Shown here: piece after piece, positions 54,128-64,000 of the stretch
How the letters are laid out: each line of letters opens with the position of its first letter
Position numbering within the stretch: position 1 is the first letter of the stretch
Assembly: GCA_963854735.1 (NCBI GenBank)
Contig: OY978108.1
Span: 806,001 to 870,000 of the forward strand
Source of the DNA: Marvania coccoides
Lineage: Eukaryota > Chlorophyta > Trebouxiophyceae > Chlorellales > Chlorellaceae
Reading direction: 5' to 3'
DNA: 64,000 bases
The notes under the pieces: generated by a model
What the model saw: only the letters and a program-made list of their open reading frames with translations
Told to the model about the DNA's origin: nothing
Databases searched by the model: none
Made by a program: the position numbers and the translations under genes

Positions 54128-55532
<1,405 letters not shown>

Positions 55533-57762: not shown

Positions 57763-60729
57763 CTACTTCTGCTGAACCTGCTGCAGCTTGTACTTGGCCT
57801 CCAGCTTTTCCAGCACGGCTGCCAGATTTACCCCCCTCCGCAAAATCACAAACTGGCCGGGCCGGACCAGCTCCACGATGGTAGAGCCCTCCCTGCCGGC
57901 GGCAGCAATCTCCCCGCCGTCAAACACCGCGTCGCAGCGCGGCCACAGCGCCGAAAATTCTTTTACGCTCAGTGCACTGCGCTCTCCGCTCAAATTCGCC
58001 GAAGTCAACGCAAGCGCCCCCCTGTGCTGCCTGCACACCGCGCGAATGAACTTCGCGTCGGGGATTCGCACGCCCAGAGAGCTGGGAGCACTGCCCACCA
58101 GGCCAGGCGCCAGGGGGGCCTCCTCCCGGCGCGGCAGCACCACCGTGACAGCGCCAGGCAGCAAATCTTCCAACAGTCCTGTCGGGAGGTGCCCCACGTG
58201 CGCGTACTTCGCGATATCTTCGTGGTCTGCCACGCAAATAGCCAACGGTTTGTGATCCGGGCGGCCTTTGGTGCCAAAAATTCGGGCCACAGCGGCTTCG
58301 TTGCTAGCGCAGGCGGCCAGGCCGTAGATGGTGTCGGTGGGCACCGCCAGCATGCCTCCTTGGCCTAAAAGCTTAGAGGCAACGCCGACGTTGTACATTT
58401 CGGCAGGAAGAACGCACCCAGGGCCAGTCACTGCATCGCCAATCCCGCCACTGCCGCCGCTGCCCTCATTGCCACCAGGCTCGGTAGCATCCACAGAAAA
58501 AGTGGCGCTATCACCACCCCCCACGATACTGCCTGTACTGCCAAAAGATGACGTGAAGCGGAGGTCTGCCACGACCGCCAAGTGGTCAGAAGGGAACTGT
58601 CGGTTGGGAATAAAGCCTCCCAGGGACGGTACGGGCGGCACTGGAATGACACGATCGACGGCGAGCCTCCCGGGCTCGTACCACACGTAGTCCAACAGAC
58701 CCTGGTAGCCGTTCACGTAGTTCGTCACCCCTCCTTTCAGCTCCCCCGCTGCTGCCAGCGCAAAAGGAGCCTCCAGGTCGACTCCGATCACTATTTCACC
58801 TGGGCTGCCTGGGCGCAGACCCTCCACCTCTGTGTGCATCATTTTGGCCACTTCCCCGCCCTCTGCCGTGCCAGCTGCGGTGGTGGTGACGGGTGCGGTT
58901 AGGGTCCCCTCTTCGTCCTTATCCCACTTGAAGCGCACCCCAAACGCCCAGTCCCAGTGGCTGGCGGGCAGTTTGCCCGCAGAAAGCAGCTCGATGGCCC
59001 CAGGGATGCCGTCATTTAGGTCGCTGTTGAGGTCGCCGCAGAACAGCATCGCCGGCTGCTGGGCGCCATCGCCGCCAGAGTGCGCCGCCGCGAGCGCAGC
59101 GGCCTCGTGCAAGATTGCCCAGACGTGCATTGTGCGGATGTGGGGCGCCGCGTAGTGAAAAAACAGATGCGTGTTGGCAACGCACAGCAGCTGCTTGGAA
59201 GAACTTGAATTTGAATTTGAGCCCACGGGGGCGAGGAGGAGGAGCTGCGCGATGGTGGCCACGCGCTGCAGGGCGGTGCACAGAGCGGGGGAGGAGCGCA
59301 GCATGGGGCCAAACGCAGCGCCGCAGGGCGCAGCAGCCACCGCCGCTTCTGCCGACGATTTCGGAAACAAATCCTTCAAGGCCACGTCCCTGCGGTCCAC
59401 CAGCCTGAATCGGTCGCGCCGCCAGAACGCCGCGGCACCCTCCCGAACGCTGCCCGCTTTATTCGTGAAAACGCCATCGAAGCCTGCTAAAGCCAGCGCA
59501 GGCTCCAAACAAGAAGAGAACATTCGATCGTCAACCTCTTGCAAGCACAACACGTCCGCGTTGTAGCGCAGCAGTTCCCCTAGGATCAACGGCCGGCGGT
59601 AGGCGGGCACCAGGCACTCTGCGGGGCAGCTGGCAAAGAGTTGGTTTTTTGCTGCATCGGTGGAGGCATACTGGTCAGCCAGGATGTTGTAGGTTACCAC
59701 GCGGAAGCCAGGGCTTGGTATAAGTGTGGCGGTGGCAGCGTACCGCTGCGCTTGCGCGTGCGGCAGCGGCGGCGCCGGCGCAACGGCAGCCGGCGTTTCG
59801 GTCTCGGTGGTGTTTCCCACCTCAAGCCCCTCCCCCTCGGTACTGCTGCTGTCAGCACGGGTGGGAGTGCACGCCACGCGCAGAACGCACCCCATGTCAT
59901 CTTGTACTGGAATGTACTGCTGATATACTGCCCCCGAAATTTCTTCCCACGCAGCTGCGGAGTTTTGGGCAAAGCGTCGCTGCCGCCACCACCGCCAGCG
60001 GCAGTCTGCCACCGCGGCGAAGCGCAGCTTCGGCACGGCGACCACGGGGATGCCCACAAAGGGCGTGCCGTGGGTATCTACGCGCTCCACGGTGGGCGGA
60101 TTAACGTGAAGGGTGTACTCAGCGTCGCCTACTCTCAACAGCCGCCCCGGCAACCAGGCTTCTCCGTTAAGGGTCGTTTCGGGGTCCAGCAGCGGGTAGT
60201 CAGCCGTGGGGCCAGCGTACAGCCCCACAAACAGGGCTGCGGGTGCTGCAGAGGGGGCATTTGTGGTCCCCGCTGGTGCTGCGATTTTGCGTTGTTTTTT
60301 TCTGTCCGGCGGGGCTGCAGCCGACTTTTGGATGCGCTGCAACGGCTTGACCAGCGGTTCGGCTTTGGAGCGGTCTAGGTTTCGTTCCCTGCCCCCCACT
60401 GTGAGCGTGATTGTGAGGTTTGGCTCGTCAGGCAGCGAGCGGACAACAGCCTGAGGGTGAAAAGATAGGATTTGCATTGTAGGAGGATCAGAAAACGACA
60501 TAGGACGACCCCCAAAGCATGTTTGGGCTATTTAAAACTATGCTTACATATAAAATCGATCAAATTTTTTTTTTGTAAAATCTCTCACCCGCTGACTTGC
60601 TGCCATCGCAAAGAACAGGGCTGAAGCCCGCGGGCGGGGCTGCTGCCTGAAGGATGTGCGACCTCTGATCAGCGTATTGTAGGTCACCGATGTAAGTAGA
60701 CGAGCAAACAGCTTGGATGTTCGAAACAT
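57763..60729 (-). CDS. Fusion of PDE12-like 2'-phosphodiesterase and YrdC/Sua5 threonylcarbamoyl-AMP synthase
   Basis: Two exons (60729-60589, 60450-57763, phase 0) encode 942 residues. Exon 1 gives a basic leader (MFRTSKLFARLLTS, RTSFRQQPRPRAS) typical of mitochondrial import. Residues 41 to about 690 match PDE12 along its length: the N-terminal block AVVRSLPDEP, then the nuclease with VTYNILADQYAS, E352 in CLQEVDDR, VANTHLFFH, D520 and N522 in CGDLNSD, and FPSDHLAVV with H670. PDE12 trims adenylates from mitochondrial RNAs. Residues about 735-930 form a complete YrdC domain (AVPTDTIYGLA, KGRPDHKPLAI, LLPGAVTVVLPR, GVRIPD, LTSANLSGE), which makes the t6A precursor for tRNAs. Exon 2 spans both domains without a stop. 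All recognised catalytic motifs are intact, so both activities are expected. Confidence 0.92.
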
Positions 60730-61804: not shown

Positions 61805-62917
61805 TCAAGGCGCTGTAGTGCGCACCGCGCGGAAGACTGCAGTCTCATTGGACAGAATCCTCACTGAAGCAGAGAAAGTCGGTCCTACCCCTGCAGTGAT
61901 GTTCCACTTGCGAGTGGCAAGGTTTGCTTGCAGATTGAAGTTGGAAACAGGGACAGAAGTGAATTTATTGTACATGAACAGTGTGTAAGGAACTGTTTGA
62001 TCCGGAATTCGGACAATTGCTACCAGGTCGACTGCAATCGGGACTTTGGGGGCAATGTTCCCTGCGAGCATTGTGGGTTCGTAGTCCACGCTCGTAGTGA
62101 GTCTCACAGGCACGGTCACACCGCCAGTGTCTGCGACACCAGTGATAGCAATGCCGTAGTTCGCGATATTGTTGTTCAGGGAGTAGATGGGCGCGGTGGG
62201 AGCGTTTGCAGCCCGGCGGCTGAGGAAGAATGAGCTGGTCTTGCCGCTGAAACAGTAGGGAGGCGAGTTTTGGGGCGCCCACAAGCCATTGTCGCTAAAT
62301 ATGAAAGTCTCGTTGGTTAAACCAGCCGATACCACACCGGTTACTGGCACTATATGATCGTAATCAGGGTCACCAGCGAGTGTGTTGGTAGATCCGTAAA
62401 ACCTATTCTCGTTGGTGAAGACCCCGATGCTAACAGGACGGCCCAACAGCGTCTGGGCCTTCACCCAGGTGAGGAACTCCAAGCTGTTCCTCTGTGCAAT
62501 GGTGTTCCACTCGAGGTACTTCAGACGCATTCCGGTCGCCGCTTTGGCGGCGTTGACGCCAAGCAAAAGCTGAGAAGCCACTCTGTTTTGCGCGACACCG
62601 GGAGCTGCAAGAGACCGGGCCTGAACATAAGGGAGGGAAACTAGGTCATCAGAAATAGCCCTTTTCAAACATTTGTAGAATGTTGTCAATTGGTCAAGAT
62701 GACTGCTTACCTGAAATTGAGAACAATATTGTCCAAAATTGAGGCCCGCGCTTATCATTGAAACTTCCCCGCAATAGCCATAGTTTGCGTTCCATTGCAG
62801 CCGGCTAGGGATGCTTAATGTTGAGCCAGGGCAGAGGACTGCGAATACTGCCGGAATCTCAGCCGCGAGGCAAAGACATCCTAAAATAATTGCGAGCGAT
62901 GTGGCGGCACGTGCCAT
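61805..62917 (-). CDS. Secreted C39-like cysteine-protease-like protein
   Basis: A signal peptide (MARAATSLAIILGCLCLAAEIPAVFA) leads into SRLQWNANYGYCGEVSMISAG, which fits the Gln...Cys active-site start of papain-fold C39-like peptidases with C49 as nucleophile. Later DYDHIVPVTGV supplies a His and FIFSDNGLW an Asp/Asn context. A 90-base segment (62710-62621) has a strong donor (CAG|GTAAGC) and acceptor (CTTATGTTCAG) but also stays open, so the protein is 340 residues if spliced and 370 if retained. Splicing is more likely. The C-terminal 140 residues look beta-rich, with several N-x-S/T sites. It is probably extracellular. Catalytic assignment is by pattern only. Confidence 0.7.
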   Translation of the reverse strand: MARAATSLAIILGCLCLAAEIPAVFAVLCPGSTLSIPSRLQWNANYGYCGEVSMISAGLNFGQYCSQFQVSSHLDQLTTFYKCLKRAISDDLVSLPYVQARSLAAPGVAQNRVASQLLLGVNAAKAATGMRLKYLEWNTIAQRNSLEFLTWVKAQTLLGRPVSIGVFTNENRFYGSTNTLAGDPDYDHIVPVTGVVSAGLTNETFIFSDNGLWAPQNSPPYCFSGKTSSFFLSRRAANAPTAPIYSLNNNIANYGIAITGVADTGGVTVPVRLTTSVDYEPTMLAGNIAPKVPIAVDLVAIVRIPDQTVPYTLFMYNKFTSVPVSNFNLQANLATRKWNITAGVGPTFSASVRILSNETAVFRAVRTTAP

Positions 62918-63069
62918 AATTGCAAAGACGCTTGAGCTGCTGCACCCCGCTGCAATCTATCCAACAACTGGGATATAAAAAATGTGCCGGGCTGAAACCG
63001 ACCGTCAAATTTGGGGTTCATATGCAGATGATCGATCATCTGGAAAGTCTGGCGAGTTCGTATTTTTTT
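62918..63069. other. 5' flank of the C39-like gene
   Basis: About 150 bases with the gene's promoter. GATATAAAAAA at about 62971 could be TATA-like only on the opposite strand. Nothing firm. Confidence 0.25.
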
Positions 63070-63490
63070 TCAATAGGTTTAAGGTTTAAGGTTTTACAGA
63101 GGTTTCACGTCTCCTACCGAGGTTGCCCCTATAGAGATGCGCAAGGCGACGTGCCACAAACCCCACTACAGTAAGGCAGAGCCCCCCCTCCTCCGTCGGA
63201 TCAATCCCAGTTAATAGGCTCTGGCCCCTGCCCCCGAGTCCCCGACGGCGCGACCGACATAAAAACAGGTGCATGACAGGCACAGGTGCATGCAGAAATG
63301 CAAATCATGCACAGAAATGCAAATCATGCAAGACGCTCCGGACGGCGAGATACGCGAACCGTCCGGTCAAGGTACAGCTTGGGCAAGCTGAGACGCCCCA
63401 GCCCCCTCTCGTCCACAGTGGTCACCCAACCCCTGGCATATAGGGTTTTTGATGTACTACCCGGTATGGTCACTTCAAATGTGCTAATAG
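63070..63490 (-). mobile_element. LINE 3' end, copy 3 (5' truncated)
   Basis: On the minus strand this is a third copy of the LINE 3' region, colinear with 4.72-5.11 kb. Shared landmarks are the CAAGGCGACGTGCCAC block, the GGCGCGACCGAC block and CAACCCCTGGC...AGGGTTTTTGATGTA on the plus strand. The 3' tail is a short AAACCTT tandem (about 63077-63095). It contains an extra CA-rich repeat, AGAAATGCAAATCATGC, twice at about 63295-63330. No coding region. Confidence 0.8.
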
Positions 63491-63542
63491 TAATGGTACC
63501 TGGCAAGTTTGCATTTTTTCTTCTTCATTATGATGATCTGCT

Positions 63543-63668
63543 GCGCTTGCGCGTGCGGCCTCGGCGCAACGGCAGCCGGCGATTCGGCCTCGGTGGTGTT
63601 TCCCACCTGAAGCCCCTCCCCCTCGGTACTGCTGCTGTCAGCACGGGCAGGGGTGCACGCCGCTCGCG
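63543..63668 (-). pseudogene. Copied fragment of the PDE12-YrdC gene
   Basis: About 120 bases match 59748-59879 of the PDE12-YrdC coding region with around ten substitutions and a 9-base deletion, in the same orientation. It lies about 50 bases upstream, in element orientation, of the truncated LINE 3' end. It includes a region encoding SSTEGEGL and VGNTTE. It lacks the rest of the gene. Confidence 0.8.
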
Positions 63669-64000
63669 TACCACACATCTTCTTCGGGTGAACCCAATAC
63701 CTTGATTGGACCCAATCCCTTCCCTTTCGTCCCCATCAACCGCCTGTCTACTGTTTCTAACGACTTGAGGAGCGCTGTGCGTCGCTCCTATCGCCTTGTG
63801 GTGAGTGCATCTATGGATAGTTTGCACATTCTTCCACCAACGACTCCCACGTGTTTCGCCACATCTAATAATTTTTGTGGTTCCATGAGCCAAATATCCA
63901 TAGGCACGACGGCCGATGCGAATAGCCGTTATCTGGTCGTCATTTGCGGCTGCAACACCCGTACTGCGGGACCGTATTCCGTGAAGACGCTCCAATGGCC
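63669..64000. other. Window end, unassigned
   Basis: About 330 bases. One plus-strand frame stays open from about 63716 to the end of the window, but has no recognisable motif. Minus-strand frames are interrupted. It could be part of the copied sequence or a gene extending beyond the window. Confidence 0.25.

Follow-up and report, generated by a model that had tools for sequence, protein, structure and literature searches.

What might an alga gain by building an enzyme of tRNA modification into an RNA 3'-end nuclease? The question is raised by a gene on the minus strand of Marvania coccoides contig OY978108.1 (assembly GCA_963854735.1), which lies at 57763-60729 of the 64,000-nucleotide stretch analysed here (positions 806,001 to 870,000 of the contig; hereafter the window, whose numbering is used throughout). 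The predicted spliced product of 942 aa, read from two exons in the genome, runs from a basic leader through a PDE12-type N-terminal domain, an EEP nuclease domain and a linker to a C-terminal TsaC/YrdC domain, the family that makes threonylcarbamoyl-AMP (TC-AMP) for threonylcarbamoyladenosine at position 37 of tRNAs (t6A37), a modification that is essential and near-universal. Our analysis favours, as a probable explanation, a bifunctional PDE12–TC-AMP synthase that would be the likely sole source of TC-AMP in the cell and would be sent to two destinations from two start codons. Published work is cited by PMC number.

Nuclease and synthase domains

By its sequence, the nuclease half is a PDE12-type EEP protein. 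PF03372 was matched in the exon-2 frame (E 3.3e-11), and the closest solved structure for the N-terminal part was PDE12 (E 3.6e-49), with CNOT6L far behind (9.9e-21); solved PDE12 aligns from residue 139 onward and spans the N-terminal Ig-type domain. The family model of that domain, PF21171, fell below its curated cut-off of 27 bits here (25.4) and passed it in the fused relative P0068 (34.2 bits). The nuclease motifs YNILAD, LQEVD, NTH, GDLNSD and SDH were all present; the N-domain, the EEP core and every catalytic motif are shared with PDE12 (human 2',5'-phosphodiesterase 12, the mitochondrial poly(A) exoribonuclease). In a phylogenetic tree, which did not include Nocturnin or Angel and carried long-branch warnings, the PDE12 side was split at 100/100 from a CCR4 set of two CNOT6L proteins and two loci of the M. 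coccoides genome. Orthology with PDE12 predicts an Mg-dependent 3' exonuclease for short adenylate tails, and the half most likely trims 3' adenylates of tRNA and rRNA, as human PDE12 is described to do in mitochondria (PMC5544427, PMC9181182). A search for the 2-5A pathway with OAS1_C gave no match, and as its control matched nowhere either, the result carries no weight.

The synthase half matched PF01300 (E 7.2e-42) and exceeded the cut-off of the L-threonylcarbamoyladenylate synthase model TIGR00057 (125.6 bits against 123.2). The closest solved structures for the C-terminal part were MTH1692 and threonylcarbamoyl-AMP synthases, and the motifs PTDTIYG, KxR and SxN were present. An alignment of 71 YrdC domains (70 relatives and the query, each matching PTD[TS]xYG) had the KxR/SxN tetrad intact in 69; the filter dropped four PF01300-bearing proteins, of which P0038, P0046 and P0061 showed the tetrad in a second alignment, A2, and P0077 carries KGR and SAN with PTETVYG. 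The residue before SAN was Thr in 69/71 and Ser in 2/71, Thr being the TsaC type and Pro the Sua5 type; on our reading, this column is the published TsaC/Sua5 signature residue. The Sua5 C-terminal domain (PF03481) had no match in the fusion protein. One departure was noted, LPGA in place of the usual LPGP, with A in 2/71 domains and P in 62/71. The half thus resembles YRDC/TsaC in tetrad, Thr before SAN and TIGR00057 score, and differs in position, as YRDC/TsaC elsewhere (Klebsormidium, Calypogeia, animals) stands alone and here forms the C-terminal domain of a nuclease. The structure matches also included PDB 8ide, a 1008-aa protein with a built-in YrdC domain, which we take to be Pandoravirus TsaN. 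YrdC/TsaC domains are likewise found within longer enzymes in TobZ and HypF (PMC9654439) and in Pandoravirus TsaN (PMC12506659); in TobZ and HypF the partner is a Kae1-like domain that consumes the YrdC product, whereas here it is an RNA exonuclease.

The first-pass annotation of this DNA had proposed one gene with two complete domains and intact catalytic motifs in both. Both proposals held, since PF03372 and PF01300 lie in a single exon-2 frame of the 942-aa product and the core residues were invariant in all 53 fusions of alignment A2, which comprised the window protein and 52 of 68 two-domain relatives (the 16 left out include P0051 and P0071). The invariant residues were YN, the QE and D of LQEVD, NTH, the GD and N of GDLN, and SDH in the nuclease, and the P, D, T, Y and G of PTDTxYG, the K and R of KxR and the S and N of SxN in the synthase. 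As far as sequence can tell, both halves have been kept working. Two relatives count against this, Tetradesmus obliquus P0071, without the KxR stretch, and Trebouxia C0005 P0051, without SxN; these gaps are either faulty gene models or real decay, which for P0071 would be decay in the Sphaeropleales.

Gene structure

The positions of the gene and its domains are collected in Table 1. On the minus strand, 57763-60531 forms a single open frame of 922 codons that stays open through the inter-domain linker. The join between the exons is backed by relatives, P0010 (MQQAVVRSLPNE) among them, whose proteins continue across this point, and the predicted protein of P0008, as read from its printed prefix, appears to translate through an intron at the same position. 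Stops lie in frame upstream of Met1, and no further ATG occurs between Met1 and Met42. The distance from the SDH motif to PTDT, 84 residues here, ranged from 37 to 109 among 75 sequences, as expected of a flexible tether.

Table 1. Features of the fused gene, in window coordinates
Feature	Position	Strand	Details
Exon 1	60589..60729	-	141 nt; codons 1-47 (leader 1-41, Met42, rest to 47); GT donor after codon 47
Met1 start	60727..60729	-	Weak context: C at -3, T at +4
Met42, internal in-frame start	60604..60606	-	Strong context: G at -3, G at +4
Intron	60451..60588	-	138 nt; GTGAGA...CCTCAG, GT-AG, phase 0
Exon 2	57763..60450	-	2,688 nt (895 codons and stop); holds both catalytic domains whole
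PDE12-like N-terminal (Ig-like) domain, PF21171	59851..60099	-	E 1.5e-5; 25.4 bits, curated cut-off 27
EEP nuclease domain	58555..59691	-	YNILAD to strand past PSDHL; PF03372, structure match, motifs
Gly/Ser-rich linker between domains	58417..58554	-	SDH-to-PTDT distance 84 residues
TsaC/YrdC domain, PF01300 (predicted TC-AMP synthase)	57832..58371	-	KxR 58261-58269, SxN 57994-58002

Part of the gene recurs nearby. At a distance of 3.8 kb and on the same strand, 63540-63676 copies 59745-59890, with 89 % identity over 122 nt and 93 % over 27 nt that overlap them, and is taken to be a partial gene duplicate. It stands beside a dispersed repeat of about 185 nt (63300-63485, 85-100 % identity); of the 41 genome matches listed for 63300-64000, 39 map to this repeat, a lower bound with 40 of 121 candidates scored. 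Also nearby is a 383-codon open frame on the minus strand (61805-62956) whose start reads like a signal peptide; no Pfam family matched its span 61808-62923 at E up to 0.01. On the other side, 54708-55532 (plus strand) encodes an rRNA adenine dimethylase (PF00398, E 8.5e-36).

TC-AMP supply in the genome

Searches of the 22.46-Mb genome with PF01300 and with a Klebsormidium YrdC query (E up to 10) found two YrdC-family loci. The second (L007, 1420-2121, plus strand, G000:C2) is YciO-like, matching YciO at 2.4e-19, MTH1692 at 7.7e-15 and Escherichia coli YrdC at 3e-4, and of the tetrad it keeps K and has lost R, S and N. YciO is reported to be unable to replace TsaC in vivo and to fall short of it in vitro by more than four orders of magnitude (PMC12506659). 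A hidden second TC-AMP synthase was considered and rejected, as family and protein searches of the genome returned only this YciO-like locus. No other tetrad-bearing YrdC was found, a negative from which very short exons or a gene in an assembly gap would escape, and to that extent a point against a sole-source role; nor was any Sua5_C domain found in the genome (the control matched in 5/14).

TC-AMP synthase itself leaves tRNA unmodified, that step being carried out by TsaD or KEOPS (PMC9654439). Two TsaD genes were present, one scoring best with Kae1 models (L023) and the other with bacterial TsaD (L024+L025), and we take the first to be Kae1-like and cytosolic and the second to be of the bacterial or organelle type. 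Both were scanned as exon pieces, at which scale the family-specific cut-offs were not reached and only the broad model TIGR00329 was passed, by L023. The second gene lies in two exons, so the search does detect split genes. TC-AMP thus has users of two kinds in this genome, and one maker was found. As no other tetrad-bearing YrdC was found and yet two kinds of TsaD are present, the YrdC half probably also supplies the cytosol, and the fusion is probably the cell's sole TC-AMP synthase, serving several compartments. It would make TC-AMP in every compartment that the protein reaches, as the t6A37 precursor for both a cytosolic Kae1/KEOPS route and an organelle TsaD route.

Leader and alternative starts

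Exon 1 had been described in the first-pass annotation as supplying a basic leader of mitochondrial type. The basic character was borne out (41 residues, 8 K/R, no D/E); the hydrophobic moment gave no backing for import, as 647 of 2000 shuffled sequences were as high. The leader is therefore assigned to mitochondria from its composition and from homology to PDE12. Among 16 leaders tested for hydrophobic moment, only that of P0049 stood out (32/2000 shuffles as high). The protein may also be imported into plastids or have a role there; chloroplast tRNAs also carry t6A, and a review states that the t6A37 enzymes for chloroplast tRNAs of Chlamydomonas reinhardtii are still unknown (PMC8877259).

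The second in-frame start, Met42, suggests a route to several compartments. Yeast Sua5 is described as one gene that serves the cytosol and mitochondria by two AUG codons, the long form being mitochondrial and the short one cytosolic (PMC5951830), and a comparable two-start layout is seen here; yeast Sua5 differs in having a Sua5_C domain (PMC9654439) and no nuclease. Most likely, one mRNA would yield two products here: a mitochondrial form with the leader by initiation at Met1, in its weak context, and a cytosolic form when leaky scanning reaches Met42, in its strong context. Loose matching of an N-terminal pattern made 31 of 101 rows readable, and all 15 fused proteins with at least 40 residues ahead of the core (the window protein included) have an internal Met between leader and core. 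The other 16 of the 31 speak against a general two-start layout, as they have fewer than 30 residues before the core and most of them start near the second Met; either first exons are missing from these models or the proteins are truly leaderless. The PDE12 of several fish (P0230, P0235, P0244) also has a basic leader and then an internal Met ahead of the conserved core, so the layout may predate the fusion. The simplest reason for the joining would then be that YrdC gained a ready-made dual targeting.

Distribution and origin of the fusion

The first-pass annotation had suggested searching for both domains together in algal proteomes and knew of no described protein with this architecture. 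Of the 100 relatives listed, 68 were found to carry PF01300 together with PF03372 (scoring covered the 8000 candidates with the most words in common, and the counts of 68, 12 and 5 in this section and the next were made by hand). No paper on a PDE12–YrdC fusion was found by text searches, which mostly did not reach subscription journals; the architecture itself is widespread in core Chlorophyta sequences. Database names cover one half only, 'Threonylcarbamoyl-AMP synthase' in UniRef and '2',5'-phosphodiesterase 12' in NCBI.

Twelve of the 68 are named: two Micractinium, Elliptochloris, Myrmecia, two Trebouxia, Apatococcus, Auxenochlorella, an Ulva-labelled model, Bryopsis, Raphidocelis and Tetradesmus. 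By taxonomy, Elliptochloris, M. conductrix and Apatococcus belong to Trebouxiophyceae, Ulva mutabilis to Ulvophyceae, and Raphidocelis and Tetradesmus to Sphaeropleales within Chlorophyceae; we read the labels Ulvmu1 and Mesen1 as Ulva and Mesotaenium. The closest named stand-alone relatives of the YrdC half were streptophytes (Klebsormidium, Closterium, a Mesotaenium-labelled model, Calypogeia and flowering plants), followed further down by Mantoniella. When 12 divergent fusions were aligned and used as a query, the 7999 candidates scored gave known fusions and unfused PDE12-like proteins (from animals, Capsaspora, an oomycete and other sources) and contained no new PDE12–YrdC fusion; none of the named animal PDE12 rows among them carried PF01300, in contrast to the C-terminal TsaC/YrdC domain added here. 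On these comparisons we regard the fusion as old and kept. Because it occurs in Trebouxiophyceae, the Ulva-labelled model, Bryopsis and Sphaeropleales, and YrdC stands alone in streptophytes and Mantoniella, its origin most likely lies at the base of core Chlorophyta or close to it.

A single origin is not proved by the trees, as the fusion forms a single clade in neither; the rows of both were picked by hand. In the YrdC tree, a quick and weakly resolved one with a very long outgroup branch, the fused label needs four changes. The PDE12 tree also needs four, three of them forced by starred branches, and 0 % of 200 bootstrap trees had one change. This count is affected by Chlamydomonadales, by the broken models P0084 and P0234 and by the unsure placing of the oomycete protein and P0255; P0068 fell among long branches, beside the oomycete protein. 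P0234 and P0084, which looked unfused next to Trebouxiophyceae, were rejected as losses of YrdC, their tails being unlike PDE12 and resembling frame slips, and the count still treats them as unfused. In the YrdC tree, four rows (P0102-P0104 and P0107) bore the stand-alone label; for P0103 and P0104 it was rejected, since they carry the end of an EEP domain and are thus pieces of fusions. P0102 (229 aa, 60 % identical to the fused YrdC domain) shows no EEP end and is a further point against our explanation: it may be a gene piece, or a close relative may possess a YrdC that truly stands alone.

Chlamydomonadales and Sua5

Five named records (Volvox, two Haematococcus, Edaphochlamys and Sanguina), all Chlamydomonadales by taxonomy, were PDE12 without PF01300. 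Four end at most 24 residues after the SDH motif, and the remaining one, a Haematococcus record that is partial, ends in some 50 residues of unlike sequence. In the PDE12 tree, six unfused green rows (four named Chlamydomonadales and two unnamed) formed the sister group of the fused Raphidocelis and Tetradesmus (100/99), and all of these nested in a green clade of mostly fused rows. As the unfused rows nest among fused ones, loss of YrdC in Chlamydomonadales is the simplest reading. According to one survey, Sua5 occurs among chlorophytes only in Chlorophyceae, Volvox carteri for example, and is closest to that of a Mucoromycota fungus (PMC10321239). Taken together, tree and survey suggest that an acquired Sua5 made the fused YrdC dispensable in Chlamydomonadales. 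The mutual exclusion of Sua5 and the fusion is not clean, however, and this tells against our explanation: the survey's statement covers all Chlorophyceae, to which the fused Sphaeropleales also belong. Stepwise decay after the arrival of Sua5 would explain the fused Sphaeropleales, where Raphidocelis P0050 has an intact tetrad and Tetradesmus P0071 lacks KxR.

Weighing of alternative explanations

That the gene is an artefact, created by an assembly join or by mis-annotation of two neighbouring genes, was rejected, and we give it practically no credence. A join at about 58.4 kb or transcripts broken between the domains would have produced such a result, and no support for either was seen: one frame runs through the linker, and the same architecture recurs in many independent sequences, including P0045 and P0068 from MMETSP transcriptomes, each with both domains in one complete reading frame. 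It is very improbable that the EEP half acts as a regulator on TC-AMP or adenylate by-products (TC-AMP hydrolysis or AMP disposal) instead of on RNA. EEP substrates do vary, and Nocturnin probably acts on NADP(H) (PMC9181182), but this half is PDE12-like by sequence and tree and keeps the PDE12 N-domain, and PDE12 without YrdC persists in Chlamydomonadales. A neutral, historically frozen fusion, in which two independent enzymes gained nothing beyond chance fixation, is unlikely, though we would allow it some weight, as the linker is variable and of low complexity and separation has been tolerated in Chlamydomonadales; retention in Trebouxiophyceae, the Ulva-labelled model, Bryopsis and Sphaeropleales speaks against it, as does the dual-targeting leader that YrdC would gain.

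The first-pass annotation had itself proposed that the fusion couples two steps of mitochondrial tRNA maturation or quality control. On this view, removal of 3' tails and supply of t6A37 would act together so that end-mature tRNAs are modified. Human PDE12 strips spurious A tails from mitochondrial tRNAs, with stalling mainly at Lys codons (PMC5544427), mitochondrial tRNALys is also a t6A tRNA (PMC9654439), and the preservation of both halves is in keeping with the proposal. A restriction to mitochondria was only partly supported, as two kinds of TsaD and no second synthase were found, so that the cytosol is probably supplied too. Against such coupling are also the internal start Met42, the assignment of the modifying step to TsaD/KEOPS and not to the TC-AMP synthase (PMC9654439), the threefold range of linker length and the named Chlamydomonadales that keep PDE12 without YrdC; we hold a mitochondria-specific role to be rather improbable. 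A broader form of coupling is similarly doubtful, a little more so in our estimation. It would have the protein act as a checkpoint, sensing or trimming the 3' adenylate tails of tRNAs and providing TC-AMP on the spot, with t6A37 in the anticodon loop being favoured where 3' ends mature; across core chlorophytes one polypeptide would thus link two ends of the tRNA, and Chlamydomonadales would have been uncoupled after uptake of a fungal-type Sua5. Whether by chemistry or by regulation, tail removal and t6A might be linked, though this is conjectural. A bifunctional enzyme with dual targeting, in which one YrdC domain probably provides TC-AMP for the whole cell, remains the explanation that we prefer.

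Implications

If the fusion is indeed the sole TC-AMP synthase in many core chlorophytes, one gene would tie a multi-compartment tRNA modification to an RNA 3'-end nuclease. Because each of these proteins goes by the name of a single half in databases, an algal t6A enzyme would have been hidden under the name '2',5'-phosphodiesterase 12'. Chlamydomonadales, with PDE12 alone and a Sua5 acquisition reported in their class, would offer a ready natural experiment.

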